Source: Cochliopodium minus (Eukaryota; Discosea; Himatismenida; Cochliopodiidae). From it: a stretch of 23,952 bases of DNA. The position numbers were made by a program, and so were the translations under genes. The DNA lies in assembly GCA_024220525.1 (NCBI GenBank), contig JAMYWO010000252.1, positions 27,656 through 51,607 on the forward strand, read 5' to 3'. Shown here piece after piece: positions 1-23,952 of this stretch (within the stretch, counting starts at the first letter, position 1; each line of letters begins with the position of its first letter). The notes beneath the pieces are model-generated. The model was not told where the DNA came from. It saw nothing but the letters and a program-made list of their open reading frames with translations, and did no database searches.

Positions 1-77
1 CCATTGTGATATATTTTTAAATGATATTTCATCGGTTATATCAAATACCATTATAACTTTTTGAAATTAAAAATTGA
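1..77. repeat. 77-bp exact terminal direct repeat, left copy
   Basis: Positions 1-77 are identical to 23876-23952. The repeat covers the first 56 nt of Rab1 exon 5 and 21 nt of intron 4. An exact 77-bp overlap at both ends of a contig is what a de Bruijn assembler using k=77 leaves on a closed path, so this is more likely a circularity mark than a biological terminal repeat. Confidence 0.95.
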
Positions 78-621
78 TTTTAATTATATTAAATTTTTTT
101 TTTTAAAAAGTTTTCAGAGAATTTAATTAATTTAAAATTAAACATTTTTCTTTTTTATTAATTACCTCCTTGTGCTCCTCTATAATAAGATGTTGTAATT
201 GTTCGAAATCTATCTTGTCCAGCAGTATCCCTGATCAAATAAAAAAAAAAATGGTTTAAAGAGAATTTGTTTTAAATAATCTTTTTCAAACCAAATTTGG
301 AGCTTGATTGTTTTTCCATCTATTTCTACAGTTCTTACTTTAAAATCAACACCAATCTTTTTGAAATGGACAAAAATAAACTCCAAAAAAAGCTATTTAA
401 AAAAAAAGTTAATCACAGTTGATATATAACTCTCAGTATACATATCGTCTGCGAATCTCAACAATAAGCACGATTTTCCCACCTTTAATTCAAATTTTTT
501 TTTTGTTAATTTGAAGAATATTTTCTTTGAAAATTAAATTTACTCCACTATCTCCTATTATCAGCATTTTGTAAATAGTATCATAATGAAAATAAGAGTT
601 GCAGTTCTCGTTTGTGCTCAT
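1..621 (-). CDS. rab1: Rab1-like small GTPase, 5' part (continues at the right end of the window)
   Basis: This is a vesicle-traffic GTPase of the Rab1/Ypt1 type (ER-Golgi transport). Exons on the minus strand are 621-544, 482-417, 356-292, 230-166 and 56-1, the last continuing at 23875-23552. All junctions are GT-AG and all phases agree. Visible motifs are the P-loop GDSGVGKS (split by intron 1), the effector region [16 protein letters not shown], and switch [11 protein letters not shown], in which the usual E of GQERF is D. The start at 621 gives a short N-terminal arm ([18 protein letters not shown]) before the G domain. The reading frame passes cleanly from position 1 to 23875, so the gene is whole only if the window ends are joined. 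The whole product is about 217 aa, normal for a Rab. Rab8/10/13 are less likely because the [13 protein letters not shown] stretch is Rab1-like. Confidence 0.93.
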
Positions 622-1076
622 TCTTTTTTATTGTGTTTTTTTTATTTTATTCAATTTCTTGCAAGATGATCTTTATTAAACCAATTGTTTATCGAGGTAT
701 TACGTTTGGATGTTCTTAATTACCCATCTATTTCATTATTATTCTTTTTAAATTTGTTTTGGTCTAAATTTTGAAAAAAAAAAAGGTGTTTTGCATACCA
801 TCTTAAGAACATTGAGGATGCTATTCATTGATTATTGAGGTATTAATTTGAATTTACCTGTTTATTTTCTTTAATTATTTTTTTACATCAACTATATTTA
901 CACTCATCTTTGTTGAAATAAAAGTATAGAATTTTCCATTTCTATATTATCAAAGTAATTGGTTAAATATTCTCAAATAATAAGCAATTTGCATTTTTTT
1001 TTGAAATATGGAGTGAAATATAAAAATTAAAAAAATATTTTAAAAATATTAAAAAAGATGAAAAAAAAAAAAAAAA
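622..1076. other. Intergenic region between divergent genes (Rab1 and a two-exon gene)
   Basis: AT-rich spacer of 455 bp that must hold both promoters. I see no tRNA, ORF or clear TATA element. A weak direct repeat is present: a TTATYGAGGTATTA core near 689 and again near 832. It ends in an A-rich run just before the ATG at 1077. Confidence 0.6.
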
Positions 1077-1927
1077 ATGGAAATAATTAGTTTTTATTTG
1101 GATAAAGATTATCAAGAACATATTAAAAGTGGAAATAAAAAGATAGAATTCATTGTAAATAAAAATGAATTCTATTCAAAAAAGAAACTTTACCGAAACA
1201 AAAAACTATTCTTTGATACAAGCAATAAAAATAATTTTTACATAGACTGAGAACTAAAAAACTCAAAAAATTTAATTCACTATTTTGAGTTTGAAGAAGA
1301 TGATTTTGAAACAAATATTTTATTAATGAATTCATACAGAAGAGATATTGTTAATAGAACATTGGCATCCTACAGAAACTTTAAAATTTTGGATAAAAAC
1401 ATCCAAAACTTTTTCAATTGCATTCTCTGTAATAAAAAATAATTTTTTTAATAATTCATTTTTAAAATTAATTTAAAGGCAACCAAATGCCAAAAAATCC
1501 AAAAAGAGGAAAAGAAGATTTAAGGAATCAAAAACAATCGACATCAAATAAAATGAAATACGAAAAACTATTTACTAATAAATTTTATCAAAGAGAAATT
1601 GAAGATTTCAAAAAAGAAAGAGAAAAAGAATATGAAGAAACCTTCCTGTTTTTTGGTCAAAGCAATAATAGATACAATGTTGAAAAGATTAAAGTTTTTC
1701 AGAAAATTGGAATTGTCATTTACACTAATTCTGCATTCTTTTTAGTTTGGTATAAAGATCAAAACTTGAAACGGATTAACAAAGATTTTATTTTTTGGGA
1801 GAAGAATCTGATTGATTGGAATTTATCTCTTTTCGATTCTCTTAAAATCAGGTTCCTTTCAACTGGATTATCTGTTCAAGCCAACGAAAATGAAAATCCA
1901 AGAGATTTTAACATATTAGTCACTTGA
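1077..1927 (+). CDS. Unrecognised two-exon gene with an in-frame TGA
   Basis: Two open stretches are joined by a clear intron: exons 1077-1428 and 1479-1927, donor GTAATA, acceptor TTTAAAG, phase kept. The product would be 266 codons, lysine- and phenylalanine-rich. The N-terminal half is rich in K, N, F and Y; a charged helix (QREIEDFKKEREKEYEE) lies near the middle; the C-terminal part (GIVIYTNSAFFLVWYKD) may be globular. I do not recognise a family. Codon 58 (1248-1250) is TGA with an open frame on both sides. Three readings are possible: a mutated gene, a recoded TGA, or an extra frame-preserving intron at 1155-1289 (GTAAAT...TTTTGAG, 135 nt) that removes it. The stop is TGA at 1925-1927. 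It is convergent with the CRT-like gene. Confidence 0.55.
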
Positions 1928-2048
1928 ATAAAAATTTTTGAAATGAATTTTTTTTTATTAAACAATTATTTTTTATTGGTATTTCTTAGTTCAAAAATTC
2001 TGATTCTTTTAAATCAGATTCACTCACTAATTTGGAAAGTAGACAATT

Positions 2049-3401
2049 TTAGTTAAATTGTTGAACTGACTTTTTGGAACAAGGCATTGAAGGAATTTTG
2101 TAGATTACTACTCCAAAAGCAACAAGAAAAAAAGAAAGCCAACCTGTCCAATTTATTGCGGAGTAGTACTGACCAAATAAAGCATGAATACCAATAATTA
2201 AGGTTGAAAGGGCAGGTGCTAGGGATAATATCATGGTCGAAAATGTTGCGCTATCTTCCCTTGAAAGTTTGGTTGTAAAATTGTTTGAAATGGCTTGAAA
2301 AATAATAGCAATCCAAATCCATGAAATTCCAATTCTACAATTGCTAACATCAGGGCCACTTAGCACACTACAATCACAAGTAGAAAACCAAATACATCTC
2401 CTAAAATTAAAAATTTTGTTTCAGTATTTTTTTGAAGAAGATAATTAACTAAAAGAAAAATTATTTTACATTCCACTTTGGAATTCAATAATCATTCTTT
2501 CATTACTGGCTAACATCGGAACCCAAAACAAAGATAATACATAAACAATGACCCAAAGGTTTACAGCAAAATAAACTATAAAGCAAAAAAATTAATAAAT
2601 TTTTTTCTTTAAAAAATTATCTTTAAAAAAGGGGCTTACATTGAGGAATGGACATAACAAATTTCTCTTTCTCTACCAAATTGTTGATCAACAAATCTTT
2701 TTTCAAGTGATTGACTCTTAGTTTAGAAAAATACTCTGTCATTACATTTGCTCCTCCAATGGAAACTGCTCCAAACAAGTAGAAAATGTACCAAACAAAC
2801 TGAGGTAAATTCTTATTTGTTTCGTGGGTTGATGATGTATTAAATAAAGGAATCAATCCAGCTGCTATAACAACCAGAACACCCAATATTTCCACCTATT
2901 ATTAATAAATAAATAAAAAAGTTTTAAAAGAGAAGTATTCTTCTTTAATTTTACCTTTCTGGACCATTCCTTCCAAAATTTCTTTCCCAAAAAGAAAAAA
3001 GACAAAATTAGAACTGTGGCGATATTAAACTCATTGAAAATGATTTGGATGATTCCTGGAGTAAAAGGGTTTGCGTTCAACAAGAATACATAATTCAACG
3101 CCCAAAAGATGGCTACTGAACCGCTTATTTTCCAACTAAAAACATTCAGTGTGTTTTTTTGAATTTTAAAGGGATTTAAGGTTCTATTTTGTATTGCTGT
3201 CCAAAACCCGAAAATGATAAATGTAGCCAAAGATAATGTTACTGCAAAAGCATATTGACCATTTGGTAATTTTATTCCCTCCATCACAACAAACTATTAA
3301 ATTAAATTAAATAAATCAAATTAAGAAATAATTCTTTTTTTTACGATGATCATTGCAGAATTGGTTATTAAGAGAATAAAACTTTGAAATAGGTAGTGCA
3401 T
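2049..3401 (-). CDS. CRT-like (drug/metabolite transporter superfamily) membrane protein
   Basis: Five exons: 3401-3345, 3293-2955, 2895-2640, 2575-2470 and 2400-2049 (stop TAA). All junctions are GT-AG and in phase, giving 369 aa. It is a multi-pass protein with about ten hydrophobic segments. Segments such as NPFTPGIIQIIFNEFNIATV followed by a LILSFFFLGKKF helix, and a late Cys-rich loop beginning GMRCIWFSTC, match the layout of the chloroquine-resistance-transporter-like family, in which a cysteine-bearing luminal loop precedes the last four helices. Known members move small solutes, amino acids or peptides across vacuolar or endosomal membranes; the substrate here cannot be read from sequence. 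The first exon (19 codons) is supported by an in-phase acceptor. A nucleotide-sugar transporter of the SLC35 group is the main alternative. Confidence 0.72.
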
Positions 3402-3723: not shown

Positions 3724-4169
3724 TCATAGATTCAAATTGAAAAGAGAGAGGGTGTTTTGATAAATTATTTGAGAAACATAATCAATATGTTTCTTCTTAT
3801 TTTTCGAAATTTCGTTGAGAACAAGGGGAATATAGCCGGGGTGGCACACTTTTTTGCGGTAAGGTTCTGGAGTGAGGAAAGGGCTGTCTGTTTCCGCCAA
3901 AATTCTTTCCAAAGGAACTGCTTCCACACATTTCCTCACATTTCCTGCATTTTCAAAAGTAATTATTCCCGTAAATCCTATATAACTTTTTTAAAGAAAA
4001 TAAAATTAAATAAATTAAATTTTTTAAAAATAAAACTAAAAAAAGAGATTTAATGAAAAAAAATATACCAATTTTCAAAGTTTGATAATAATTTTTCTAC
4101 TAAAGAAAGGCTTGATGTAAAACAATGTACATGAATCTTTGAGGAATAACCCAAACAATCTTTCATGAT
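3724..4169 (-). pseudogene. TatD-family metal-dependent nuclease, C-terminal part only
   Basis: Two exons, 4169-4069 and 3985-3724 (stop TGA), encode 120 aa that align with the C-terminal half of TatD DNases. HVHCFTSS carries the metal-binding His, IGFTGIITF is the next strand, and VPLERILAETDSPFLTP carries the catalytic Asp of the ETD motif, followed by EPYR and a C-terminal helix. The splice (donor GTATAT, A-rich acceptor AAAAAAG) keeps the frame and restores CYIGFTG. TatD enzymes are usually 260-300 aa and need an N-terminal HxH and a Glu to bind metals. None of this is found in the 400 bp upstream, which is AT-rich and non-coding. Either the gene is 5'-truncated by rearrangement, next to the odd 4.5-6.3 kb island, or its first exons are elsewhere. 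Confidence 0.7.
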
Positions 4170-4576
4170 CTTCAGATAAAAAAAAAAAAATAAACAAAAA
4201 AAGAGACAACAAAATGTATTAAAATTTTTTGTAAAAAAAAAAATTTATAAATATTTTGTGGAATTTTTTTGAAGCATAAAAAATTTTTTTTAATTACATT
4301 TGAACATGTGAAATTTTTTTTATAAACTTTATCTGAGCAAACAGTAAAAACCAAGAATCACATCGAATTTTAAATAAAATATAAAATATTTTTCTTTCTA
4401 ATTAAGATATGTTATTCTCGGGCACAATGAGCATCCCCAAAAAATTTTTTTTGTAAAATCATTTGAATGCATTATAAAGATAAAGTGATTTCAATTATAC
4501 GGTAATCACCATGATTTTAAGCATTATACTTGAAATGATCTGATATAAACAGAACTCAAAAATTTGATGCTAAGAA
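4170..4576. other. AT-rich spacer with no recognisable gene
   Basis: No ORF or RNA gene could be supported on either strand. The expected upstream TatD exons are not seen here. Composition becomes less A/T-homopolymeric from about 4400, hinting at the left edge of the island. A TGATATAA motif sits at 4541-4548. Confidence 0.5.
4541..4548 (+). promoter_or_regulatory. TGATATAA motif, copy 1
   Basis: TGATATAA 36 nt before the ATN codon at 4577 (third base ambiguous) that would open the SAP-like ORF. Same motif and nearly the same distance as copies at 5082 and 5468, so a promoter element of the island is a reasonable inference. Confidence 0.35.
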
Positions 4577-4684
4577 ATNTGGAAAGATTTCAGGGAGAAA
4601 TGCAAAGGATATAACATCAAACTTTCAGGAAAGAGACCTCAATTGATGAGCAAACTGATCGAAGCAATAAGAAGTGATAATTAA
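4577..4684 (+). CDS. Short SAP-domain-like ORF
   Basis: A 35-codon ORF ending in TAA. The peptide runs WKDFREKCKGYNIKLSGKRP followed by a QLMSKLIEAI helix. Two helices joined by a turn with an SGK/R-P-x-L motif is the SAP fold pattern, a DNA-binding helix-extension-helix found in nuclear proteins and common in large DNA viruses. The first codon is ATN because position 4579 is an ambiguous base, so the start is uncertain. The product is about one SAP motif and nothing more. It may be a small DNA-binding protein or the tail of something larger. The family call rests on pattern only. Confidence 0.4.
   Translation, partial: XWKDFREKCKGYNIKLSGKRPQLMSKLIEAIRSDN
4579..4579. other. Single ambiguous base (N)
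   Basis: The only N in the window. It falls on the third base of the possible first codon of the SAP-like ORF and may mark a polymorphism or a weak assembly join. Confidence 0.95.
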
Positions 4685-4821
4685 TCTTTTTAATTCAAAA
4701 AGTTGTTTAAAAATTAAAATCTAAAAAAAAATTTTTGAAATTTTACTTTGAATTGATTAATCAATCTTAGTAGTATATATTTGCTGTTTTAGCGTCAAAG
4801 TTCATTCACATTGTATACAAT

Positions 4822-5034
4822 CATAAAGCAAAACCGACATAGAGACCTACCCCGTATTTTCCATTGAGGATACTCGAGAAATGCACACCTTATCAGTTTC
4901 TCAATGAAAAAAGCATGATATTATTAAATGGCCGCCTGTTTATTTTTATGTTTACTCAATCATCAGGTATAAAAACATAAAGCAAAACAGGCATAGAGAC
5001 CGACCCTGTATTTTCCATAGAGGATACTTGAGAG
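4822..5034. repeat. Two diverged direct copies of a 59-bp sequence, period 154 bp
   Basis: Copies at 4822-4880 and 4976-5034 share CATAAAGCAAAAC, CATAGAGACC and GTATTTTCCAT followed by GAGGATACT, with about seven differences. Weaker similarity extends upstream of each copy (CTGTTT...GTATA), so the unit may be the whole 154 bp. It is richer in G and C than the flanks. No open frame is kept in both copies on either strand beyond the repeat. It could be a duplicated small RNA, a promoter-terminator unit, or part of an element end. Confidence 0.75.
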
Positions 5035-5068
5035 AAGGATATGCATAGCACTTTTTCCGTCATAAATA

Positions 5069-5490: not shown

Positions 5491-5501
5491 TCTAGATTAG
5501 A

Positions 5502-5822
5502 ATGAAGATTGAAAATATAGAACAAGCAAAAAAGGTGAGATTGATGTATTTAAAAAAGTTGGAAGATCTTATCATGGAAGAAGAAGAATTTAATGAGAAT
5601 GTTGATAATATGGAATTTGATGATTTGAATGGGAGAAACAGGTTTTCTAAAGATTTTAGAAATTTAAGGAAAAGGAGAGAAAGAATACTGAATGTAATTG
5701 ATAAATTAGAAAATATAATTGAAGAAAAAATCTTTGAAAATGAATCTTGTTTCCATCAGGGACAAGACATTATATCAACAAATATGGGATATACAGAAAG
5801 TTTTGTTCAAAAGGATGTATGA
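5502..5822 (+). CDS. Small acidic coiled-coil protein, unrecognised
   Basis: Intronless ORF of 106 aa with its own ATG and stop TGA, preceded by the TGATATAA/TCTCCACA module. It is predicted to be largely helical: a first charged helix (MYLKKLEDLIMEEEEFNENV), an acidic stretch, then a basic helix (DFRNLRKRRERILNVIDKLE) likely to form a coiled coil, and a polar tail. No enzyme motif and no membrane segment. It resembles the small helical proteins common in viruses and mobile elements, but no family can be named. It is convergent with the methyltransferase, with 47 bp between stops. Confidence 0.5.
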   Translation: MKIENIEQAKKVRLMYLKKLEDLIMEEEEFNENVDNMEFDDLNGRNRFSKDFRNLRKRRERILNVIDKLENIIEEKIFENESCFHQGQDIISTNMGYTESFVQKDV

Positions 5823-5869: not shown

Positions 5870-6340
5870 CTAAACATCTACTTCTTTTATTTTTAATTCT
5901 TCTTTGTTTTTATTTCCTGCGAATTCAACTATAATTAAAGGTTTTGGAAAAGGGTTATCATAACCTCTAAATTTCACTGGCTTCAAAAAAATTATTGAAT
6001 CAAAGTTTTCCCAAATCATATTATAATAGTTTGTACTTGAGTTGTTAGGGATCAAAAAGAAAGTTGTTCTATTGTTAGTATTTTTTTCGAAAATTTCCCT
6101 TTCAATAAATTGTTTTATACCACTCGATCTGCTACCGTATGGTGGATTACAAAAAATAAAGCTTCCCCATTCAACATCATCTCTTAGATTATCTATAATA
6201 CTATTCTCGGGGCAACAATCAAAGTCAAATTTTATTTTGTAATGTTTCTCAATCCACTTGATCAGATTTCTTGGAGTACCAATTGTATTATTATCTTTAT
6301 TCAATCTATATGATTTTATCTCTTTTTTAGTTTTTGACAT
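5870..6340 (-). CDS. Phage-type DNA N6-adenine methyltransferase
   Basis: Intronless ORF of 156 aa, ATG at 6340, stop TAG. It contains the amino-methyltransferase catalytic motif NPPYG (motif IV) preceded by WGSFIFC, and an N-terminal segment (TPRNLIKWIEKHYKIKFDFD, then CCPEN) like the TPxxLxxxLxxxFxFxLD opening of the small phage Dam-like family (Pfam DNA_N-6-adenine MTase). A later strand (TTFFLIPNNSST) and the RGYDNPFPKPLIIVEF segment complete the fold. Known members move methyl from S-adenosylmethionine to adenine N6 in DNA. The length is normal for the phage family and the frame is whole. All other long genes here have introns, so this one is likely acquired from a virus or phage. Its start codon lies 28 bp from the AASS stop on the same strand. 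Confidence 0.75.
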   Translation of the reverse strand: MSKTKKEIKSYRLNKDNNTIGTPRNLIKWIEKHYKIKFDFDCCPENSIIDNLRDDVEWGSFIFCNPPYGSRSSGIKQFIEREIFEKNTNNRTTFFLIPNNSSTNYYNMIWENFDSIIFLKPVKFRGYDNPFPKPLIIVEFAGNKNKEELKIKEVDV

Positions 6341-6368
6341 TTTATTATACTTTTAGTAAAGAAAACTT

Positions 6369-7097
6369 TCAATAAAGTTTTTTGTCTTCATAAAGAGGTA
6401 CATTTCTAAAAGTAAATTGGTATTCGATAACCTCTGAAATTGGATCTTGATAATAAAAACTGACCATTGCAACTTCTGTTTTGAAAATTTAAAAACTTAG
6501 CTAGTGTAAAAAGGACTAATTGTTTAAAGTAATTTCCAAGTTCAAATTAAAAAATAATGTGGATTGTAGTAAATTTATTCTATTAATCTAAAATATTTAA
6601 TGATAAAAAAAAATTTTTAAAAATATATATTACCTTGAGAATAACTTCCTTCATGAACCAATAATAACATCTTACATCCATCTTTGAATGGTTTTAAATT
6701 TTTATGTAGAAATCCTTTCCCATTAGAACACAAATAAACTTTATCACTGTTAAAGAAATATCCGTGTCTGTACTGATCACAAGCAAAACCTAGTTTTGAA
6801 TCTAGTACTGCTTTGCAAGATGCTACTCCGAACGGGAAATATGGATCTGTCTGGTGAGTTATTTGAAAAGGATACAAAAAATTTTCCATCAAATAGTTTT
6901 TGGTGATACAACAATTCCATGCTCCTATTATAAATTTATTTTTTTAATTTATATAATTAATTAATTTTTATTTCTATATCTGAGAAATGAAATTCATGAA
7001 AAAAATATTTGTTACCTGATTTGTCATTTGTTGTCACAATTTTGTTATTATTCAGATCAATATCCATTGTAGGTAATAATCTTTCTTTGTTCCATCC
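6369..7097 (-). other. SPRY-like segment fused to AASS (end of exon 9, exons 10-11)
   Basis: After the AASS homology ends, the frame continues for about 158 codons with a SPRY/B30.2-like order: an opening W followed by an IVTTND strand, [10 protein letters not shown] (the usual xGVA strand), [20 protein letters not shown] in place of the usual FKx[10 protein letters not shown] (the usual FYxNG strand), and [10 protein letters not shown] at the end. It stops where SPRY domains normally continue with LYPxV, so the last strand is missing. SPRY domains bind proteins. The assignment is by pattern only. Confidence 0.5.
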
Positions 7098-10000
7098 CAC
7101 CATCAAATTGATCAAACTGGAAAGAGCATCCAAAACATCAGAAAAACCAGTATATCTCAAAGTTCCTCTGAAAAAAGTTTTGGGGTTGGAAAGACCATAA
7201 GGTTTGATGTAGCTGAGAGAATCTCTGTTGGAATACCCCTCCAAACTGAATCCGGGAAAGAAGGAAACCTTTTGTTTGTTTTCGAAAACTGTTCCTGGTT
7301 GCAATTCTATTACTCTGTCTCCTTGTTTGTAAATCGCTCCATTCTTTCCTGCCAACAATGCTCCTCTTGGACTCCTAAACAAAAAATATTAATTTTTATT
7401 TATTATTTATTACTTATTTTATTATTTATTATTTATTATTTATTTTATTATTTATTTTTTATTTTTTATTATTTATTTTTTATTATTTATTATTTATTAT
7501 TTATTATTTATTTTTAGTTTTTTTATTTATTTTTAGTTTTTTTTTATTTATTTTAATATTAAGATTATTTTTAATTTTTTTTATTTTTTGTCATATTATT
7601 TTTTCTTATTATTTTGTATAACTTTACTTTTTATAATTTTTTTGGTTAATAATTTAAATGTTTTTTCTAATATTAATGTTTTCATTGATTTGTTTTTGTT
7701 TTTATTTTGTTTTAATTTTTTACCAACTAAATTTGTAGGCGAGAGGATTGTTACTTGCTTCAGGAGCAGGAAGGCCACCACACCAAGAAACAAAGCTGGT
7801 GACTTCTCCTCCCTTTTCTTTTGCCTCGTTAATCACTCTCATTGCTTCCAAGTGATCAATACCTGGATCCAATCCCATTTCATTCTTTTATTTTAAAAAA
7901 AAAATATTGTATAGTTCAGAAAAATGAAAAAAATTTAAAAAACTAATAATTACAAAAATAAAAAAAATAAGATAATAAATTGTTTTAAAATAAAAAATTA
8001 TGAAATTAAAAAATATTCAAATAAATAAAAAAAATTCTGAAAATAAAAAAATATTTAAAAAATGAAAAATATTTAAAAAATAAAGAAAAAAATGTATATA
8101 ACATATAATTTTAAATACATGAAAAAAAAAATTTTTGAAGAATAAAAAAAAATCATAAACTAAAAATATTGGATAAGAAATAATAAAAAAAACTAAAATA
8201 AGAAAATCCAAAAAAAAAAAAAAAAAAAATTTTTACCATGATAGTAACTTGAGCAGTTTCAGCTTGAGAATGCAAATCCTGCATTTCAGAAGTGGTATAA
8301 GAAGTAGTGACCAAAGAAATTCCCTTCTCAATGCAAGCCTTGGCAACACTGACATGCATGGTGGCAGGCAAAAGAGAGATGACGATGTCAGAGTCAGAAA
8401 CCAAGTTTTTCAAGGCGATGAGGTCGGTGGCGTCCCATTCCAACACGGTGATGTTTGGTCTGCCTCCCTTCATTTTCTCTGCTCTTTCTGGCTCGTTTGT
8501 TGCCACCACTACTTTGTATCCTCCTGCTCCGTCGTCTGCGAAGTAATCTATTACTGGTCCGCTCACCATTCCTTTTTTCAAAAAAATAAATCAAAAATTT
8601 ATTGAAAAAAAAAATAAAATATAATTTTAAAAATTAAAAAGAAAAAAAAGAAAATGTCCATAATCATAAAAAAAAATGTTCATAATCAAACAAATGAAAT
8701 TTACTTTAACATTATTTCTTTCAAAATTTAAGGTGTAAAAACGGAACAAATAAAAAAAAAAAATAAAAGAAAAAAAAAATATGTACAGCAATAATTAAAA
8801 TGTACATAAAAAATAAATCTTAAAATCTATTATAATTGAAAGAATTTAAAAGCAAAAATTATTTAAAAAAATTTAGAGAATCAAAAATAAAATTACCAGA
8901 ACCCAAAACTAGAACTTTTTTGAAATCTTTGTCTTTGGTGAGAGTTTTCTTACGAAGATCAGTGATGTATTGATAAGCAGGAGTGAGACTTCCGTGATTT
9001 GTCAAAACTGCTTTTCTGAGGGGTTCGGGTAAATCTGATTGTTCTTCGAATGGTTTGCTACCGTCTGACAAAGCCAATGGTTCGATGAAAGGAAGTAATG
9101 CATCTCCAAAATAAATTGTTGCGTCCTTTGGAATTTCTAAAAATAAAAAATGAATTTTAAAAAAATTATTGAAATAGAAACTTTTGGAAATAAAATTTTA
9201 AAAGAAAAAAAAATTAAAAGAAAATTTGGAAATAATGAAGAAAAAATAATAGAACAAATAAATCTTGAAATTGGAAAAAAATTTTGTAAAAAAAAAATTA
9301 TGAAAAGTTTAAAAAAATACAAAAAAAATGTAAAATTCAACAAAAAAATTTAAAAAATGAAAAAAAAATTTACCAGTTGGCAAGTTATCTACAGCAAGAA
9401 ACAATATTCCTTTTTTGGAAACATCCCATTGGACCAATCTGTTGACTACGTCATAAACAAAGAAAGGATGGTCAATGGAGGAATTTGTTTTCAAAATTTC
9501 AATTCCTCCTTCGAGATCGCAGGACAAATCTGCAACTCCAATTAATCTTAACTTTCTTTTTCTGTTTAATTCCTCTACTTGTTCTGTTGTCAATAATCTT
9601 GGGAAATTTGGATCCCAATACATACAATTTATAATAGCAGAAGCGTACCTAAAAAAATAAATTGAAAAATAATTAAGCTTTTAAAAAATAAATTGAAAAA
9701 TAAGAAGCAAAAATTGAATGTAAAAGAAAAAGCAAAAATATTAAATAATGATAAAATTCAATAAATAACAAAAAAAAAAAAATTTTTTTTTTTACCTTCC
9801 ATAATCTTGATAAAAAGTGGAATGATAATTTTGAGGTTCTCTGTAATACTCAAGTCTATTAAACTCTTTGTTAGGATCGTTATGCTCGACAATTTGATCA
9901 GAAGAAGCGATGGTACCATAAATGACATCCCTTCTCCATTTCTTCTTTGCAAAGATTTCGTGCATTTCCTCTTTGGTGACCCATTCGTGGGGCAAAAGCT

Positions 10001-11782: not shown

Positions 11783-14774
11783 TCAGAAATCTAAAGTAAA
11801 GTTTTTGACTTTCTTTTGGTTTTCAATGTAAGTATCTTTAAACTCATAAACAATTTTCTTGTTTTCAACAATGCTTTCAGTCCACTCAATCAATTTTGTC
11901 AAAGCCTTCTCTTCGCTATCATGTTTATAATTAAGACCAACATTATGCATAGCATTGTCTCTCATTTCAACATACTCCATTCCAATCAAATTAGGCCAGT
12001 ACCACTTAATTTGGGCAGCATATAGAGCATAAAGACCCACACAAAAAGTGACAGCGTGAAATTCGATTTTGTTATTCAGAAGATCTTTGTTTTTTGCATC
12101 CAATTTCTCTACAATGTCGATGATTTCACTAAACCAGACAATGGATGACAGTTTTGGTGGAACATCTTTTTCATTTAAAAAAAATTAATTAATTAAAATA
12201 AAAGTTAAAAATAATTAAAACAAAAAAAACAAAGTAAATTCACATTTATCTATTGGATTTTGCAAGATTCTTCTGAATATTTTCAAGAAATATAGCCCCT
12301 TTTCTTTGTTGAGAGTGCTGCTCGCTTGTTGATCCAATAAGATATCCAATTTGTCTTGTTTTCTCTCTTTTCTGTCTTTAATGGAAGATTTGGAAGATTT
12401 TTTTGCTTCTTTCTTCTCTGTAAAACCAAACAACTTTGTTCCTATTTAAAAATTTAAGAATATAAATTAAAAATTAAAAAATTGAAAAATTTTTTATTTA
12501 CCCCACAATTCCCTTTGTTCCTTTGTCTTCAAACATTTGAATAAATAAATTTTGTCTTCTTTGCTAAAATTCTTTGGGTCAGGATTTTCCTTTTTTTTTG
12601 TCAAAATAAAAAATCAAAAAATTAAAAAATTTAAAATTTAAATTTAAATCAAAAAATTAAAAAATTTTTACCCAAAAAGATCTATAAAACTCTACTTTGT
12701 TTTCTTCAATTCCATCAAACAAAATGGACATGTCAACATTTTCGAAAAACTTGAGTTTTTTTTCTTCTTCGAGTTTTTCATCTTCAAATTTCTTTCTTTT
12801 TTTTAACAAAAACTCATTGACATAAGGTTCTTTCTTTACAGAGGGCAAAGAACTCCAAATGTCAGAAGGAGATTGTATAGAAGAGCGAAAACCAAATTTT
12901 TGGAAGCCAAAACGGAATTTCTTTGAAATTTCAACGAAAAAAAGAACAAAAAGAATAGAAATCAAACATGAATAAAACGCAGTTAAACCTCTAAATGAAA
13001 GGAGAACTGTCGCATTAAAAAATAAAAAGGAGAGGAGAGAGTATGTCGGTTTTGAAGTGTAAATAAAAGATTCGTTATAAAAGTACAGCCTTTCCATTTC
13101 TTTGTTGATCATTTTGAATTCGTCCATCATACATTTCAACCTATTTAAAAAATAAAAAATAAAATAATAAAATATAATAAAAAAAAAAAAAATAATATTT
13201 TTAAAAAATTATATACAAATTAGGAGGAACTTCCAGTTTTTGTTGTATGTAAAGATGATAATCATCACCCGATATTTTTTTGATAAATTTAATAAATTTT
13301 TTGTAGTGAGAAGAGAAAGAGGGAGAGGATTTGATGATTTGGGCGAGAAAAGAGAGGAGGGGAGAGAAAAGAGGAGAAAACACTTTTTGTTTGAAAGAGG
13401 AGTAACAATCCACAAAAAGATCTTTAAATTGAAAGAACAAAAGAGAGGAAATCAAAGAAAAATAAGAAAAAACTAATAAAGAAGAAAAAGAAGGAAATAA
13501 AAGAGAAAACACCGCAAAAAAAGCCAAAAACGCTGCAAAAAAATTTCTTTTGAAAAAAATGGGGAAAGAAAAAGAAGAAGGTTGATCTTTTCCTTCCACG
13601 TACTCTTGATTAAAAACAGAATTAAAAGAAACACGCAAAGGAGTACGACTCAAATGACCCAATAAATCCCGAGACTTTTCTATGTTTTTCCAGCCCAGAA
13701 AACTCTTCTTCTTTAGGTTTTCGGAGAGGTACTTTGTTGATTCTCCCATGATGGTGATCACTCTAAAGATGGAGTACTTCATGTTTTCGTTGTTTGGGTC
13801 GTATCGGGTGGTGGAAGTGGTGAGGGGTGATAGTCCTTCCAGCATTGTTTTTATTTGTAGTTTGTTGAGAAAAAAGGAAGACAATTTGCATATGTTCACG
13901 AATCCCCAAATAGGTGGTCTTGTTCTTAAAAATTTTTCAACAAATAGAAAATAAAAAAAATAGATTAAATATTGCAACATAAGAAAAAAAAGAAACTTAA
14001 GAAATTTAAAGAAAAACTTTTTAAAATACAAAAAAATACTATCAAAAATTAAAAAAATTATCAAATATTATTAAAAAAAATTATAAAATTTAAAAAAAAA
14101 TAATAAAATTTAAAAAAAAATTAACAATTAAAAATATCAAAAAAATTAAAGGAAAAAATATCAAAAAAATTAAAGGAAAAAATATCAAAAAAATTAAAGG
14201 AAAAAAAACCAAAAATAAAAATTTTTTTTTTTTTACACTTCCCCTCGTCTCTTTTCTGGTTTGAGATGAGCTTCTTTTTTTTGGTCTTTAATTATTTGAG
14301 AAAATCTTTCTTTCATTTCTTTAATATCGTGTTCCCAAATCATTGGGTAGGCTACTTCCATCATTTTTAGTGCTTTGTGTTCGTCATCCAAAGTTTCTTC
14401 GTTTGTTTTATCGATTAAATAAATTTGGATGTATTTTTTTATCAATTTTCCAAAAAATTCAAGGTAGTACCTTTGTAAAAAAAAAACAAATTAAAATTTA
14501 ATTTTAAATTATTATTTTCAGAAAAAAAAAAATTTCTATTTTACCATGGAATATCTTTGTATCTATCTTTTATACTCCATTTCTTATATGATACATCTCT
14601 TATTTTGGCAGAGATCGAAATAAGGTGATTCATTTTTTCCAAATCATCCTTGAAATCGCTCTTTTCCATAAATTCCAATATTTTCGCAATTTTCTCAATA
14701 TCTTCATCCCTAATTTTGCTTATCCAATCATTATATTCGTTGCATGCTTCATTTTCACTTACTGATTCGATCAT
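11783..14774 (-). CDS. 769-aa membrane protein of unknown function
   Basis: Seven exons in phase: 14774-14545, 14470-14237, 13924-13217, 13140-12672, 12589-12502, 12441-12244, 12165-11783 (stop TGA). The N-terminal ~270 residues are soluble and helical (KIRDEDIEKIAKILEFMEKS, then a KRR-containing linker and TRPPIWGFVNIC). Two long hydrophobic stretches follow, at about residues 283-319 and 423-459, each long enough for a hairpin or two helices, separated by about 100 polar residues. The C-terminal part has a Lys/Glu-rich coiled-coil-like region (KKRKKFEDEKLEEEKK, KKEAKKSSKSSIKDRKERKQ) and a helical domain with YALYAAQIKWYWPNLIG. No signal peptide, enzyme motif or known family was recognised. 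Two wide hydrophobic hairpins recall ER-shaping or organelle-membrane proteins, but this is only an analogy. Confidence 0.72.
14134..14205. repeat. 24-bp tandem repeat, three copies, in an intron
   Basis: The unit ATATCAAAAAAATTAAAGG plus A-run repeats with a 24-bp period at 14134, 14158 and 14182, inside intron 2 (13925-14236) of the membrane-protein gene. The copies are almost identical, so the expansion is recent. Confidence 0.85.
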
Positions 14775-14977: not shown

Positions 14978-17900
14978 TTATTTATATTCTTCAACCAAGT
15001 TCTTGAAGTGTTTGATCAAATCATCAATGCTCATAGGTTCACCACGACCCTTTTGATCTTTACCAGTACCTCTTGGACGAACATTGACAGAGTTGTTCTC
15101 TTGTTCAACAGCACCAACAACAAGGGTGAAGTTGTATTGAAACTCGTTTGCGTAGAGGATCTTTCTTTCCATGGTCTTACCAGAAGTATCGACATCTACA
15201 TAGAATCCTGCTTCAAACAATTGTTTTTGAACTTTTTCTGCGTATTCATTGAATCCAGAACCAATTGGAACAACTAAAAGGAAACAAATGTTAATTTTAA
15301 AAAAAAAAATGTAAAATAAAAATTTCTTTTTTTTTGAATAAAAACTAAATGAATTTTTTGGATTTATTAGTCAGTGAAAAAATTTCTCCTTCATTATTAA
15401 TAGGTAGAACGAAAGTTATTTTCAAAATCATCATTTTAAAAACCAAAAAAAATGTTTTAAAATAAAACAAAAAAAAAGGAATGTAAAAAAAAAAATTTAA
15501 AAAAAAATTTTAAAATGTTACCCAAAGCTTGTCTTGGGGAAACCCAGAAAGGCCACTTTCCTTCAGTGTGCTCAGTCAAAATAGCGAAAAATCTCTCAAC
15601 AGAACCATAAATAGCTCTGTGAATGATGACAGGTCTGACCAAAGTGTTATTCTCATCCAAGTACTGCAACTCAAACTTGATAGGGAGTTGGAAATCAAGT
15701 TGGATGGTGGCGCATTGAAAAGATCTCTTCATGCAGTCGTATACGTGAATGTCAATTTTTGGTCCGTAGAACGCTCCGTCTTCTGGATTCAACTTCCATG
15801 GTTTTCCAAATTTGTTCAATGCGTCTTTGAGTGATTGTTCTGCTTCATCCCATTGACTAATTTCCCCTGTAAATTTGTAAAAAATAAATTAAGAATTTGA
15901 ATCAAAAATTATAAAAAAAAATTTAAAAAAAATAAAAAAATAACAATATAAAAATAAAAATAAAATCACAAAGATAATTTTATTGATTCAATTAAAATAG
16001 AATGAATTAACAAAAATTTAGATTTAAATTAAAAAATAATTTAAAAAATAAAAATAAAAATAAAAATAAAAATAAAAATAAAAATAAAAATAAAAATAAA
16101 AATAAAATTTATTTACCCATAAAATTTTTAGGTCTGGTGGAAAGTTCCAAGGAAAATTCGAATCCAAAGACACCATAGACATGTTTCATAAAACCAAGAG
16201 CGTTTTCAATTTCCTCAGTGATTTGCTCACGTCTGCAGAAAATGTGAGCATCATCTTGTTGGAATCTTCTTACTCTGGTCAACCCAGAAAGAGCATTGCT
16301 GAGTTCGTTTCTAAAAAGATAAAATGAGATAAATAAAAAAAATTAATCAAAAAAATTAAATGAAAAAATTTAATTGAAAAAAATCAAAAAATTAAAAAAA
16401 TTAATGAAAAAAAAATTAAAAAAAATTTAAAGAAAATGAAAAAAATTTAAAAAAAATGTTACCTGTGTAAGACTCCAAAGTCAGCGAGACGAATAGGCAA
16501 TTCTTTGTAAGATCTGGTTCTGTTTCTGAACATCAAACAGTGACCAGGGCAGTTCATAGGTTTGAGAGAAAACTCTTGGTCTTCGCAAATGAAAGAGAAC
16601 ATGTTTTCTTTGTACTTTGCATTGTGTCCAGAAATATCCCATAAACTATTTTCAAAAAAAAATAAAAAAAGAAAAAATAATAAATTAAAATGAAATAAAA
16701 TAAAATATGATAAAAATAAATTGTTAAAAACAAAATTAAGAGCAGAAGAAAGGTTGTTTAAATTTAATTACCGAGAACTGAAAACGTTTGGGGTAATTAC
16801 TTCAGTAAATCCTCTCTTTCTGTATTCCCCACGAGTAAAATCCATCAACTATCGAAAAGGGGTTATTTTTTTAAAAAAAAAAAAATGACAATAAAAAAGA
16901 AAAAAATGACAAAAATAAAGACTAACATGAATAAAAAATACGAAAAAAAAAAAGAAAATAAAAAAAATATTGTTTATTTTTGCAAAAATAATTCAACAAT
17001 TTTTTTACCTTGTTGTAAATTTTTGCACCATGTGGAAGGAAGAAACAAGAACCAGGACTCAACTCATCAAAGAAGAACAACTCCTGTTCCTTCCCGATCT
17101 TTCTGTGGTCGTTTTCGAGTTGTTTCTTTCTGTTTTCGATCCATTCTTTGAGCTCCTTGGCGGACGGGAAAGTGATGGCATAAACTCTTTGTACTGAAGG
17201 GTTGTCTTTATTCTTCCTGAAATAAGCGCTACTGTTTTGGAAAACTTCAAATGCTTTTGCTTTTCCAGTGTTAGGAAGATGAGGTCCTTTGAGAGTTAAA
17301 TTAATTTAGATAATTAAAGATTAAGGGATTTTTTTTTTATTTTTGGATATATAATTCGTTAAAATATCTTCTTCAATAAAAGGTTTTATTATTTATTAAT
17401 TATATTTTTCTGTATTATATTTTAAACTCCAAATTTGAAGTTGTATATTTTTATAAAGTTTATTTTTGCTTTCTTAGAATATTATTTAATCTGATTTATT
17501 TATTATTATTTTTTTTACCTTTGCATGGATCAATCAAATCACCACATCTATAAATGGTGCAGGTTCCACCTTCTTCGACCTTCTCCTGAAGAATTTCAGT
17601 TTTGAATCTGCTGTATTTGAACATTTCAAGAGCTTTATCCTTAGGACAAACAATCATCTCGAATTCATCTTTTTTCTTGACTACCTCTTTCACACCTTGA
17701 TTGATCTTTTCCCAATCTTCTTGAGTGATTGATACATCTTTCCCTTCTTTATCTTTGATTGCCATATCATAATAAAATCCTCCAGTTTCTATTGGTGGAC
17801 CTGAACATAGATATCCTCCCTATTATTATTATTAAAGAAAATAAATATTTTTCTTTTCAAAATTTAAAAATAATCAATTCTTACATAGATTCTTTCCAAT

Positions 17901-18463
17901 GCTTGTCCCAAGATATGTGCAGATGAATGCCAAAATACTTTTTTACCTTCTTCATCTTCGAATTTTAACAATTTTAAACTAGAATCTTCTTCAAAGGGTC
18001 TATTTAAATCCCAAAGAACATCATTAACCTAAATATAAAAAATGAAAGATGAATAAAAACTATTCAAAATTGTATATTTAAAGATATTTAACTGTATATT
18101 TCTCTTAAATACAAATATATTTTGGATAATTTTTTTTTTTATGTACTGTTTTTATTTTTTTTTCACCTTTGAAATGATAACAACATTTGCAAGTCCTTGT
18201 GAAATAGATTTTGCAACATCCATTGGGGTGGTAATATATGATTTTCCATCAAAAATCTTTCCATCAGGCAAAGTAATTTTGATATCTTTTCCTTGTTTCT
18301 TCAATTTTTCTTCTTCATTCAATTTTTTGACTTCTTCCCAAATTTTTATTCTGTGTTCAATATATTCAGGTTTTGGCAATGAATTATAATCAAACTTTGG
18401 TGCTTGAACTTTAATACTCTTTGGTTTATTGTTGTTCTTATTGTTTTTAATATCTTCACTCAT
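14978..18463 (-). CDS. TARS: Threonyl-tRNA synthetase, cytosolic type
   Basis: Nine exons, all in phase: 18463-18167, 18028-17885, 17819-17519, 17286-17009, 16848-16772, 16645-16463, 16310-16117, 15866-15522, 15273-14978 (stop TAA); 704 aa, the usual eukaryotic length. It charges tRNA-Thr with threonine. A charged N-terminal extension (about 1-60) precedes the TGS domain ([20 protein letters not shown]). The editing domain carries HSSAH at 133-137. The class II core has [17 protein letters not shown], the zinc-site region MNCPGHC, motif 2 [14 protein letters not shown] (439-452), [16 protein letters not shown], and motif 3 [15 protein letters not shown]. The anticodon-binding domain starts at [12 protein letters not shown]. 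There is no targeting sequence at the start ([13 protein letters not shown]), so it should act in the cytosol. All catalytic motifs are present. Confidence 0.96.
16043..16108. repeat. (TAAAAA)n hexanucleotide microsatellite
   Basis: About eleven perfect copies of TAAAAA inside intron 7 (15867-16116) of the ThrRS gene. Confidence 0.9.
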
Positions 18464-18689
18464 TTTTTTTTTTTTAAATTTGTTTATGATTTTTTTTTTT
18501 TATACAGATTGAAAAAACAACAAAATATTTTTCTTTTTGTACTTGTTATTTATGAGAAAAATATAAGAAAAGTGAATGTCATCTCAAAAGATACCATAAC
18601 TATTGAAATTTGTTATTTATTGCAAAATAAAGGCTGACTGAAAATTTATACCCAAAGAGAAGAAAAAGAAAAGTGAAAGATAAATAGAT

Positions 18690-20262
18690 TTATTTGGATA
18701 GTAAAGCATTTAACCAATCATCAAGATGAACCAAAGCAAGCTTAGGAGCATTTTTGAACAAGAGAAGATAACCTTGCAATTCAGCCATACTGACAACATT
18801 ATCACCAATAGTTTCGGAAAATTGGGTGACAATATCCTCACCACTAAGCTCAGGGAAAAACTTGATGAACATCTTCTCGATCTGAGTACGAGAAGCATTA
18901 CCTAAAAAGTGTTTGACATCAACTCTGCCAGGACGAATCAAAGCAGGATCCAACTTTTCAAGATGATTGGTGGTCATAAAGAGCAATCTTCCTTCTGAAG
19001 CAGCAACACCATCAAGAGCATTCAACAACCCAGAAAAAGTTAATCTATTCAAACCTTGGTATTGTGTGGTTTTTTCTTTTGTATCGTTTCTGTTTGTGAA
19101 GGCAGCATCTATGTCTTCTAACAAAATGATTGATCTTTCTGGTGCTACTGAAAGCAAATGAATCAGTCTATCATCTGTTAAGCTTGCATCAGATAAACTC
19201 AATATACAGATATTATATTCTAGTTGTCCTGCCAAAGCCTGAATAAAACTAGATTTACCACTACCTTTTGAGATAAAAAAATTTTTATTAATTCGTTGAA
19301 ATAATTTTGAAAAAAAAAGAAATTTTGAAAGAATTTATAAATTGAATTTAATTATTTTTTACCAGGAGGTCCATATAGCAAGTATCCCCTTTTTTATAAG
19401 TTTTTTTGTAAATTTAGAAATTATTTATTTTCCTATCTTGTTGTATATTTTTTTTTTCACCTTCTATATGGAATTCCTCTATCAATATACCAACCAGGAT
19501 TTTCAACGAAATCCTTTACATCATTTACAATTTCATCAGTAGTTGCACCATCAAGAAATACAGAAGTGATTGGTCTTCTTCTTCTTGGATTACCAAATGG
19601 TCTCCATTCATGACCATAACATGTATAAATAATAGTTGTTCCATATTCTTCTTTTAATGCCAATTGCTTTGCATCATTCAATAAATTAATCAATATTTGC
19701 TTATCTCTTCCTAACATGGTCAATGTTACTGTTTCCCATAATGATCCATTTTGTATATCTATTGCTGATTTTTCTCTTGTTCTTTCTACCTTTATCCATG
19801 TTCCTTTATATTTCAAATAATGATTTCCTACAGATGGAAGGAAATCTATTTTTGTTTTTACATTTCCATTATCATGTCTTTCGAATGATGTTGAAATGGA
19901 AAGATGTTGTGTTGTTTTAACTTTATATATGGTAAAAAAAATCAAATTTTAAAAATTCATCTTGATAAGACTAATAATTTCAATTATATCTCACCATTTG
20001 AAGACATCCATCTCAAAAACCATTGATAACTTTTATCTTTTGATGGTATTTCAATTGATACCAACAATTTTCTTCTTGCATATATTGTTCCTTGTTGAAA
20101 TCTATAGAATTAACCTCATTAATTTTGTTTTTTTTTTTTTTGACAATTATTTTAATCTTTAACCTACAATTTTCTCCCAACTGTGGCCGCAGCTCCTATT
20201 CCAATCAAACCAAATCCAGCTGAAAAATATGGATTATTTGACAATAAATCGTTTAAATTCAT
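18690..20262 (-). CDS. BCS1: BCS1-type mitochondrial AAA ATPase (complex III Rieske translocase)
   Basis: Five exons in phase: 20262-20168, 20101-19995, 19920-19461, 19388-19363, 19264-18690 (stop TAA); 420 aa, matching human BCS1L (419). It moves the folded Rieske protein across the mitochondrial inner membrane during cytochrome bc1 assembly. The N-terminus ([20 protein letters not shown]) is the single membrane anchor. The BCS1 N domain follows ([53 protein letters not shown]). The AAA domain has Walker A GPPGSGKS (227-234), Walker [32 protein letters not shown] with the sensor Asn and Arg finger region, and a C-terminal helical part. Exon 4 is only 26 nt and splits Walker A. It shares a 327-bp divergent spacer with the Rho/Rac gene. 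Confidence 0.96.
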
Positions 20263-20589
20263 CAAAAAATTAAAAAAAATCTTAGATCCTTTTTATTTTT
20301 TTTATTTTTTTTTGATGTTTTGACAAACTAGATTTTTTTTTATTTCATAAAAATGGAAAGTAAATCATACTCTTTGAATCAAATAATCCATTATAATCAC
20401 CCATTTTCTTCCAAACAATAATAAATAACGAACATTTTTTTTTTTTAAATTGTTCTGTTTTGATGAATTTATAAAAAAAAAAATAATCCTTTGGCAAAAT
20501 TCTTTATATACTCAATAAAAGAATAGAAAAGAAGTGAAGAAATAGATCAATAACAACTGAATACATAAATAAATATATAGAAAAAGAGA
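20263..20589. promoter_or_regulatory. Divergent promoter region between BCS1 (-) and Rho/Rac (+)
   Basis: 327 bp with no full gene. On the minus strand a 19-codon ORF (20404-20345, MGDYNGLFDSK...) lies 82 bp before the BCS1 start. No in-phase splice links it to BCS1, so it is at most an upstream ORF. No other motif could be supported. Confidence 0.45.
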
Positions 20590-21741
20590 ATGAATTTAAA
20601 ATTGGTAAATTATTTTTTTGAGAATAATAAATATTTTTATTATTCTCTCAATATTGAATTATAATACTAATCTTACTCTTTAGGTTGTAGTGGGTGATGG
20701 TAGTGTTGGTAAAACGGCTATGCTTATAAGTTTAATAGAGGTAAATTAAAATATATTCAAAATAATAACCTCGAATATATCGGAATGATGAAACTCAACT
20801 GAATATAATCTCATTATTTTAGAATCGATTTCCAATTGACTATGTTCCAACTGTATTCGAAAATCATTCAACATGTAAAACCAATATATACTTTATTTAA
20901 TGAATGATATTTTAAATATTCCGTTTATAAAAACTCAAATAATCATTTATATCTCCTTTGATTAAATTTAGCAATCGATGTGGATAATAAAACTTATATG
21001 ATGGATTTATATGATACAGCGGGTCAAGAAGAATACAAAAGATTAAGAGCTATATCATATCCTGAAACAGATGTGTAAGATAATTTTTTAATAAAAATAA
21101 TTAATCTCCTTCAATAAGAATTATATTTATATTTTTGACATATAAAAAACAGGTTTTTGATTTGTTATTCTGTTGTGGATGAAAATTCATTTGGTAAAAA
21201 AAAAAAAACTTTTATTAATAACATAACTTGCATAAATAAACATTAGATGTTACAATATACATCATATATCAATTATAGCAAAGAAAAAATGAAGATTAAT
21301 TCAAAAATATTGAATGGGATTCGTTCTTCAACATATTTTTCTCCTTTATTAATTTAATTTTAATTTTAGCCAATATAACTCTCAAATGGCTGAGAGAATT
21401 AAATCATTATTGCCCTGATGCAATCAAAATCTTGGTAGGAACAAAGATCGATCTCAGACAAGATCCGATCATTAAACAAAATCAAACTAGAATTATGAAT
21501 AAAGAAGATGGTATCAACCTTGCCAAAGAAATTAAAGCACAATCTTATCAAGAATGTTCATCCTTTTCAAGGGAAGGTTTGACTTTTTCAATTATAATCA
21601 ATATCCTTTTCATCTCATTTCTTTTTCATTATTTAAAAAGGTCTTAAAGAATTATTCCAACATGCTGCTAGGAGCGTCATTAATATTAAATTTAATAACA
21701 ATCAAAAGAATAATACGAAAAAGGGATGCACTATTTTGTAG
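20590..21741 (+). CDS. Rho/Rac-family small GTPase
   Basis: Seven exons in phase: 20590-20604, 20684-20740, 20823-20874, 20972-21074, 21153-21193, 21370-21576, 21641-21741 (stop TAG); 191 aa, the normal Rho size. It is a membrane-bound switch for actin and polarity signalling. P-loop [14 protein letters not shown], switch [10 protein letters not shown] (the effector Thr is present), switch [14 protein letters not shown], a Rho-type insert around [10 protein letters not shown], and a C-terminal CAAX box CTIL after a basic lysine pair (NTKKG), predicting geranylgeranylation. The usual ECSA motif reads ECSS, and the insert region ([13 protein letters not shown]) is ordinary for Rac. The first coding exon is only five codons, ending right before the P-loop strand. 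No inactivating change in the GTPase core. Confidence 0.95.
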
Positions 21742-21904
21742 ATATTTATCATTATTACCTCTTCATAAATAAAAATGTAATTTATATCCTAATTTATTTC
21801 TCTTAACCAAATCTTCATTTTTGAAATTTTTCAATCTTCTTTTGGGAGATCTAATTTTGTTTTGAAAGATTATAGTTTTCAAATTGAAATTTAAAGAAAA
21901 AAAA

Positions 21905-23400
21905 ATGGACAGAGATATGGAAAAGAGAGAAAAAATAGAAAGATCAAATAGGGTATAAAACTAATCTTTCTATTCCATCTTCAATTCATGAAATATTTGA
22001 AATTAAAAAAAAGGGATTATTTCCTATCAACTCTGAGAGTCTATTCTCAAATCCTACATCCGAAGAGATATATTATTTTGGTTATTCAAAAGATTCAAAA
22101 GAGAATGTCATTTTTTTGAGTGGAAAAAGAAGGATAGATTTGGAAGAGAAAAAAATAAAGAGTATTGCTCCTGGTTATAACTTTACAATAGCTATATCAG
22201 AGGAGAATAGAGTATATTATTGGCTTTCTCGAAAGAATATAGAAGAAATAAAAGAAATTAGTTTAGGAAATGAATTGAAAGGAGAACCCATTTTATGCAG
22301 GATGGGATATTATCATTCAATCATTTTAACTGATAAAGGTAAAAATATGAAATTTAATTTTTTTAAAAAACTAATTGTGAGATAAATAAATTAAATTAAA
22401 TTAAATATAAAACCTCAATTATTAAAATGATTACTTATTAATAGGAGAGGTTGTTACGATCCCTTCATTTCAAGAAGGTTATAATTATACAGGGAATGAA
22501 AAGGAGAAGGAATTAGTGGACTTCAATGGATACTCCTTGTCTTTGTCCTTTTTGAGTGGAAAAGAAATAGTAATATCTGTCACTTGTGGTTGTTTTCACA
22601 GTTTGCTTATTACAAGTGAGGGAAGGGCATATGGTTGGGGAAGGTAAAATAATTTTTCATCAAAAATTTGAATGTTTTTTTTTTTTTGAATGATTTTTTT
22701 TTGTATTTTTTTAAATATAGTTCAACCAGTTACGAACTAAATGATGGTTTTAAAGTTTTAAAATAAATTTTTTTTTTAAATATTTCTTTTTTTTTTAAAA
22801 AAAGAAACAACAAGTGTAAAAACTCCATTAGAGATTAAAGGAGATTTGCAAAATAAGTTTGTGACACAGATAGGAGCAGGTTACAACAATAGCGTGTTTT
22901 TGGTGGAGGGAGGACAAGTTTATGCAAGGGGTTCAGGAAATTTGGGGAAGAAAGTTGAAAAGAGATCCCTTTCTTTGTGTGATGGAGACGAAAGAATTTT
23001 GCAAAAAGTAGAATCTATATCTTGTTTTAATAACACTGTCCATTTTTTAACAGAAGGGAGAACTTTAGTTTTATTTTTTGAGAAAACAAAAGTTAATGAA
23101 ATTAAATTGGCGTCTCCTCTTTTGTGTGGGACGACTGGCTATAACAACAAATCTTTTTTCTGCGAAAAAGATCATTTCGTGTCAAGTTTAAGCAATACTG
23201 ATTTTAATCCTCCCCTAACTGTTGTAGGGATAAATGAGAAGTATCCTTTTTATTCTCAAGAGTGGAAACCGGAAACTCATCGTTTGATGAGATCTTATGT
23301 TAAAAAAGCTATTTTTTGTTTGGTTGTGCTAAGGAAAATCCATCCTCTTTTCAAAAGAGTTCCCAAACCTGTTTTATACATTATCTTCAGAATGTTATAA
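21905..23400 (+). CDS. RCC1-repeat protein with an F-box-like C-terminal tail
   Basis: Five exons in phase: 21905-21952, 22014-22338, 22445-22643, 22721-22746, 22805-23400 (stop TAA); 397 aa. RCC1-type propeller repeats are visible: IKSIAPGYNFTIAISEENRV, MGYYHSIILTDKGEV, VTCGCFHSLLITSEGRAYGW, IGAGYNNSVFLVEGGQVYA and a weaker ISCFNNTVHFLTEGRTLV. So at least five blade units exist, fewer or more diverged than in a full seven-bladed RCC1. The last ~55 residues (EWKPETHRLM, then PKPVLYIIFRML) form a helical tail like the F-box-like ends seen on protist RCC1/BTB proteins. Known RCC1-repeat proteins act as exchange factors or scaffolds; the partner here is unknown. Exon 4 is a 26-nt microexon. It lies just after, and on the same strand as, the Rho/Rac gene. 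Confidence 0.85.
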
Positions 23401-23551
23401 AAAAAAAGTTTAAAGAAACAAAAGAGAAGAATAAAAAGTTTATTTAAAAATTTTTTTTTTTTTATTTTTATTTAAATGAAAAAAAACATTTGAATAAAAA
23501 AAACATTTGAATAAAAATGGTTTTAGAAGATTCATCCTTTAGACATTTTTT

Positions 23552-23952
23552 TCATAAAATTTGGCAGTTACAACTTTTTTTCCTTTCAGCAGGAAGGTTA
23601 TTTTTGAAAGATAAAACAGAATCAGATTTGAAAGGGAGAGAGGGAGGAGGGCATTGAACAAGATAAGATTCATATATTTGTTTTGTTAATGAAACAAAAG
23701 TTTCTTCAACATTTATCTTATGTTTGGAAGAGGTTTCGATGTACTTAAATCCCAATTCATCTGCAAATTCTTTAGCTTGACAAGATTCAACAACTCTGTA
23801 TGATTCCAAATCGCATTTATTTCCTACCAACAACTTTTGCACGTTTTTGCAGGAATATCTATCAACTTCTTCAAGCCATTGTGATATATTTTTAAATGAT
23901 ATTTCATCGGTTATATCAAATACCATTATAACTTTTTGAAATTAAAAATTGA
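23552..23952 (-). CDS. rab1: Rab1-like small GTPase, 3' part (exon 5, joins the left end)
   Basis: Exon 5 runs 23931-23552 and ends in TGA; 23932-23952 is the end of intron 4. The first 56 exon bases are the same as window positions 56-1. It encodes the guanine-specificity motif NKCD, the G5 motif ETSSK, and a hypervariable tail ending in CNCQIL. A CxC pair near the C terminus is a usual Rab geranylgeranylation signal, so membrane anchoring is expected; here it is followed by three more residues. The tail contains a proline-rich run (CPPPSLPF), which is not typical of Rab1. The gene is convergent with the RCC1-repeat gene, whose stop lies 151 bp away. Confidence 0.93.
23876..23952. repeat. 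77-bp exact terminal direct repeat, right copy
   Basis: Identical to positions 1-77. With this overlap removed the unique length is 23,875 bp. The open Rab1 frame runs through the join, which supports real adjacency of the two ends. Confidence 0.95.

Follow-up and report, generated by a model that had tools for sequence, protein, structure and literature searches.

A 23.9-kb path of intron-rich nuclear DNA that closes within a Rab1 gene and may derive from a composite extrachromosomal circle

The window analyzed here is the whole 23,952-nucleotide stretch of contig JAMYWO010000252.1 (Cochliopodium minus assembly GCA_024220525.1, positions 27,656 to 51,607 of the forward strand), the two ends of which overlap within a Rab1 gene. 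On sequence grounds, we tentatively read the window as a closed path derived from a composite extrachromosomal circle of nuclear DNA, and assign this reading a probability of about 0.4. A chromosomal fragment of ~21 kb, which begins within the 3′ part of a gene for the bifunctional LKR/saccharopine dehydrogenase (LKR/SDH), includes Rab1 and ends within the 5′ part of a TatD DNase gene, would be joined at both of its ends to a second fragment of 2.3–2.9 kb carrying a Dam methyltransferase. The template would have been circular or repeated head to tail, and the assembly path would have been opened at an arbitrary k-mer (k = 77) that happens to lie within Rab1. This reading is favored because the cut ends of TatD and LKR/SDH face one and the same filler, and the missing parts of both genes were undetected in the window.

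The terminal overlap and the Rab1 gene at the join

Bases 1–77 of the window are identical to bases 23876–23952. This is the sole exact border among the lengths of 1–1999 tested, and the probability of a given 77-bp match is ~10^-39.5 at the base composition of the window. The overlap and the gene in which it lies are arranged as follows.

1..77, no strand: left overlap copy, end of Rab1 intron 4 and start of exon 5; direct repeat
23876..23952, no strand: right overlap copy, identical to 1–77; direct repeat
1..621, minus strand: Rab1 exons 1–4 and the start of exon 5 (56–1), spliced frame across the join; Rab-1A match
23552..23952, minus strand: Rab1 exon 5 to the stop, frame across the join; Rab-1A match

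When the ends are joined and one overlap copy is removed, the minus strand carries a five-exon Rab1 gene with an open frame of 217 amino acids and one stop (exons 621–544, 482–417, 356–292, 230–166, and 56 through the join to 23552; introns of 61, 60, 61 and 109 bp). Residues 12–177 of the product align without gaps to residues 2–167 of a Rab-1A chain in the PDB (4fmb, E 6.6e-79). When the two halves of the protein were searched separately against PDB chains, Rab-1A was the best match for both (E 1.1e-43 and 1.6e-28). Because Rab1 is coherent across the join and each half is best matched by Rab-1A, the adjacency of the window ends is probably real.

The overlap consists of the last 21 bases of Rab1 intron 4 followed by the first 56 bases of exon 5, and as a biological repeat, a sequence that spans an intron and an exon in this way carries no evident meaning. 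According to a figure legend of the CheckV paper (PMC8116208), terminal repeats cluster at particular lengths, such as 55, 77 and 99 bp. The same source ascribes such lengths to likely assembler k-mers, the circular template having apparently been broken at a random place. Since 77 bp is one of the lengths named there and the overlap lacks an obvious biological meaning, it is probably the k-mer footprint of an assembler run at k = 77, and the Rab1 join is probably just the place where the ring was cut open. The preliminary description, made from the letters alone, had proposed the exact 77-bp overlap, its origin in k-mer length rather than in a biological repeat, an uninterrupted five-exon gene in phase across the ends, and the biological sense of that adjacency; all four proposals agree with the results above, the second as far as the CheckV legend goes. 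It also named extrachromosomal circular DNA, a collapsed tandem amplification and an assembly loop as candidate origins, all three of which are weighed below.

The window would look the same if it were a linear 23.9-kb segment flanked by two Rab1 copies that share exactly 77 identical bases, with one k-mer at both contig ends. We consider this very unlikely: the shared bases include 21 of an intron, their number coincides exactly with a standard k (77), Rab-1A is the top PDB chain for each half, and the two cut genes would be left unexplained.

A scan of prokaryote genome contigs for Rab1 yielded 30 loci with GC contents of 0.31–0.52 and no close relative of the window; DNA alignments of these 30 loci to the window comprised two short ones of 59 and 102 bases. 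Rab1-like sequences with 64–68% identity to the query were found in contigs with bacterial titles (L001, L002 and L024), perhaps through eukaryotic contamination of those metagenome-assembled genomes.

Two cut genes on either side of a Dam-bearing filler

A ring cut from a chromosome must hold a junction, so genes located there are likely to be broken, and the junction need not lie at the ends of the contig. We suspect two doubtful joins, both away from the window ends, at ~4.17–4.58 kb (where TatD is cut) and at 6.93–7.12 kb (where LKR/SDH is cut). The features of this region are listed below.

3724..4171, minus strand: TatD DNase, C-terminal part (gene end approximate); PF01026 positions 148–235 of 253 (spliced piece) or 169–253 (raw frame)
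4172..4579, no strand: first junction interval, inferred bounds, reaching from the first TatD exon still present to the window's one N
4575..4684, plus strand: SAP-like terminal exon (tentative); PF02037 22.0 bits (cut-off 23.9) if the codon with the N is read as isoleucine, 14.7 in the raw frame
4802..5033, no strand: 78-bp direct repeat pair (4802–4879 and 4956–5033), 83% identical, spacing 154
5496..5822, plus strand: charged open reading frame (ORF) in the filler; no Pfam or NCBIfam match, PHROGs E 0.097 or worse
5870..6352, minus strand: phage-type DNA N6-adenine methyltransferase (Dam), one uninterrupted ORF; PF05869 6.5e-11, phrog_111 3.2e-17
6617..6943, minus strand: orphan ORF, without family or SDH similarity; in-phase splicing to the last SDH exon possible
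6925..7118, no strand: second junction interval, inferred, where LKR/SDH homology stops
7016..11311, minus strand: bifunctional LKR/saccharopine dehydrogenase; PF05222, PF03435, PF16653; 5′ end present, SDH C-terminal part missing

Only the C-terminal part of TatD is present. About 147 N-terminal positions of the 253 in the profile are missing, and the best PDB chain aligns only from residue 154 of its 265. LKR/SDH is cut at its other end: the first exon (read by eye) and the LKR and NADP-binding domains are present, and the match to Sacchrp_dh_C (PF16653) breaks off at position 152 of its 265 in the raw frame, or at 137 in the trimmed model. The alignment to the SDH of AASS ends at residue 309 of 497, its last aligned residue lying near 7119, and the looser raw-frame match to Sacchrp_dh_C reaches ~7026. 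Six-frame Pfam scans, with stops read as X, were run on the linear window in six segments (1–3400, 3300–6700, 6500–11100, 11000–15000, 14900–19100 and 19000–23952), and they revealed no other piece of TatD and no further piece of SDH. The closed circle was also searched with ten motif patterns for the missing parts of the two proteins. Seven patterns were empty and three gave five matches, which lay at a distance from these genes or on the plus strand, and the controls, two TatD motifs and two SDH motifs, were found once each.

The cut ends face each other across the same 2.3–2.9-kb stretch. From the window itself we tentatively infer that both cuts are fusion points and that the template existed as a physical circle, as opposed to a chimera formed in amplification or assembly. 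With a circular template, closure through one filler would need no coincidence; if chimeric joins had formed twice independently, it would be a chance event. An opening that lies inside Rab1, away from the cut genes, fits a loop standing alone in the assembly graph. Assigned gene spans make up about 82% of the large fragment (an approximate figure that includes the 11.8–14.8 kb region), so both ends falling inside genes would be expected for a random break, and this feature does not decide between a circle and an artefact.

The strongest competing account, which we hold to be almost as likely as the composite circle, is an artefact of assembly or amplification. A linear nuclear contig running from LKR/SDH via Rab1 to TatD would have been ringed by one or two false joins near 4.2–4.6 and 6.9–7.1 kb, arising from chimeric reads of whole-genome amplification or from a scaffold misjoin marked by N. 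Both suspect joins cut genes, as this account requires, and the only N of the window, at position 4579, falls within the first interval. By position alone, the chance of an N there is 1.7% for 4172–4579 and 4.7% for 4172–5282, values that were judged post hoc. Two false joins, however, would both need the same filler as well as exact closure. Inverted duplication is typical of amplification chimeras, and its absence from the window counts against such a chimera: inverted repeats of at least 60 bases were never more than 75% complementary, and all eight of the listed pairs consist of AT-rich sequence.

The same loop in an assembly graph would result from the collapse of a chromosomal tandem duplication or array (head to tail), which should be indistinguishable from a circle by k-mers. 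In Leishmania, moreover, tandem duplications and circles are described in a passage of PMC9910336 as products of the same repeat recombination. We regard an array as unlikely, since a duplication whose flanks were assembled would be expected to interrupt the contig at its edges, the cut genes, and not inside Rab1.

Several observations weigh against a composite circle. The position of the single N, inside the first junction interval, is one that a scaffold misjoin could produce; TatD, LKR/SDH or both may have decayed in the chromosome long ago; and the orphan ORF, given its in-phase splice, could be a natural if odd end of the LKR/SDH gene. A foreign origin of the filler by composition was unsupported, its tetranucleotide profile being ordinary: 26 of 80 same-sized windows, some of which overlap the filler, deviate more. 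The selection of rare closed contigs from very large collections favors an artefact, and the size of the ring, compared below with that of known circles, is a further point against a circle. As for the way in which a composite circle might have arisen, we think it improbable that the window represents an abundant ~24-kb composite nuclear circle of a protist, its large fragment gene-dense, that was amplified well above the chromosomes and that may owe its origin to recombination of a Dam fragment copy in LKR/SDH with another in TatD.

The Dam ORF scores 26 bits against NCBIfam TIGR01712, under the cut-off of 97, and is less than 60% identical to every one of 68 phage records. It is an uninterrupted phage-type ORF in an intron-rich eukaryotic contig. 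No upstream exons were recognized for the SAP-like exon, and the 78-bp repeat pair is possibly a degenerate dispersed element. The orphan ORF (6943–6617) has no family in Pfam or NCBIfam, and its PDB search returned only an unrelated match at E 1.3. A resemblance to the SPRY/B30.2 domain was unsupported by Pfam, by PDB and by a single-sequence AlphaFold2 model, which had a pLDDT of 39.1, and the ORF is therefore left without assignment.

Gene content of the ring

GC content per kb ranges from 0.21 to 0.31 across the window. The minus strand carries Rab1, BCS1, threonyl-tRNA synthetase (ThrRS), one or more genes at ~11.8–14.8 kb, LKR/SDH, Dam, TatD and a CRT-like transporter, and the plus strand a Rac-like GTPase, an RCC1-repeat protein and further ORFs without assignment. 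The gene-finder merged neighboring genes into one per strand, and its exons were used as a guide only. Features of the ~21-kb fragment other than those listed above are as follows.

2049..3293, minus strand: CRT-like transporter; PF08627 28.9 bits (cut-off 26.9), positions 29–335 of 335
11783..14761, minus strand: one or more spliced genes (approximate, gene model); without a Pfam or NCBIfam family at curated cut-off
14978..18499, minus strand: threonyl-tRNA synthetase; TGS, tRNA_SAD, core and anticodon domains
18690..20219, minus strand: BCS1 mitochondrial chaperone (start approximate); BCS1_N 1–182 of 182, AAA, BCS1 lid
20690..21740, plus strand: Rac-like small GTPase (start approximate, gene model); PF00071 3.2e-44, positions 4–161 of 162; ends CTIL
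21939..23330, plus strand: RCC1-repeat protein (bounds approximate); PF13540 7.6e-22

These spliced eukaryotic genes mark the window as nuclear chromosomal sequence, and within the large fragment ThrRS, BCS1, Rac and the start of LKR/SDH look whole. The preliminary description had spoken of an intron-rich set of nuclear housekeeping genes on a closed path. It was right about the kind of gene (ThrRS, BCS1, Rac-like, RCC1, CRT-like and LKR/SDH) and overstated the set as closed, TatD and LKR/SDH being broken. It mentioned neither these truncations nor the N at 4579. The product or products of 11783–14761 are partly hydrophobic. No Rfam family reached its gathering score in the window, and ARAGORN found no tRNA there.

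The closed form and the phage-type methyltransferase would also suit a circular minichromosome that is stably maintained, or the genome of a virus or plasmid with eukaryotic genes. We give this explanation hardly any credence. Such a molecule should carry intact genes throughout, whereas the conserved TatD and LKR/SDH are broken. The Pfam scans found no viral hallmark gene at curated cut-off and, likewise, no replication or capsid family, the nearest being a lambda-integrase arm domain at E 0.83 and 10.2 bits against a cut-off of 22. Among six selected ORFs compared with PHROGs, only the Dam methyltransferase fell below E 0.001. The plasmid and phage collections held no near match to the window, and the 77-mer had no exact match in viral contigs. 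Relatives of Dam, Rab1 and LKR were also absent from viral contigs in scans that were seeded by six short peptides per protein and thus reach close relatives only.

Comparison with known circles

Extrachromosomal circular DNA (eccDNA) of mouse cells, as described in part of PMC9295135, includes non-continuous circles of two fragments, and 99.5% of the circles are within 3 kb. The ring proposed here would resemble the two-fragment circles of that account in uniting two genomic pieces. It differs from the mouse eccDNA reported there (PMC9295135) in its 23.9 kb, in being abundant enough to assemble, and in that its circularity is putative. In Leishmania, circular amplicons arise between direct repeats, according to the section of PMC9910336 concerned with them. 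These too are circles of protist nuclear DNA, as the window is proposed to be, and they differ from it in that no direct repeat pair is seen at its junctions, although a ring would keep only one copy. If the ring is physical, an AT-rich eukaryote, probably a protist, would possess a large eccDNA that carries several genes.

Contigs that an assembler ends with direct terminal repeats are usually thought to be phage, plasmid or organelle DNA, and closed contigs are often read as complete viral or plasmid genomes. The window shares with contigs of the kind described in the CheckV legend (k = 55, 77 or 99) an exact terminal overlap of k length and an arbitrary cut point, and differs from assembler-closed contigs as commonly understood in that the ring is intron-rich nuclear DNA. 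Such DNA, too, can close cleanly with an overlap of k length, and asking whether each gene around the ring is intact leads to suspect joins at a distance from the contig ends.

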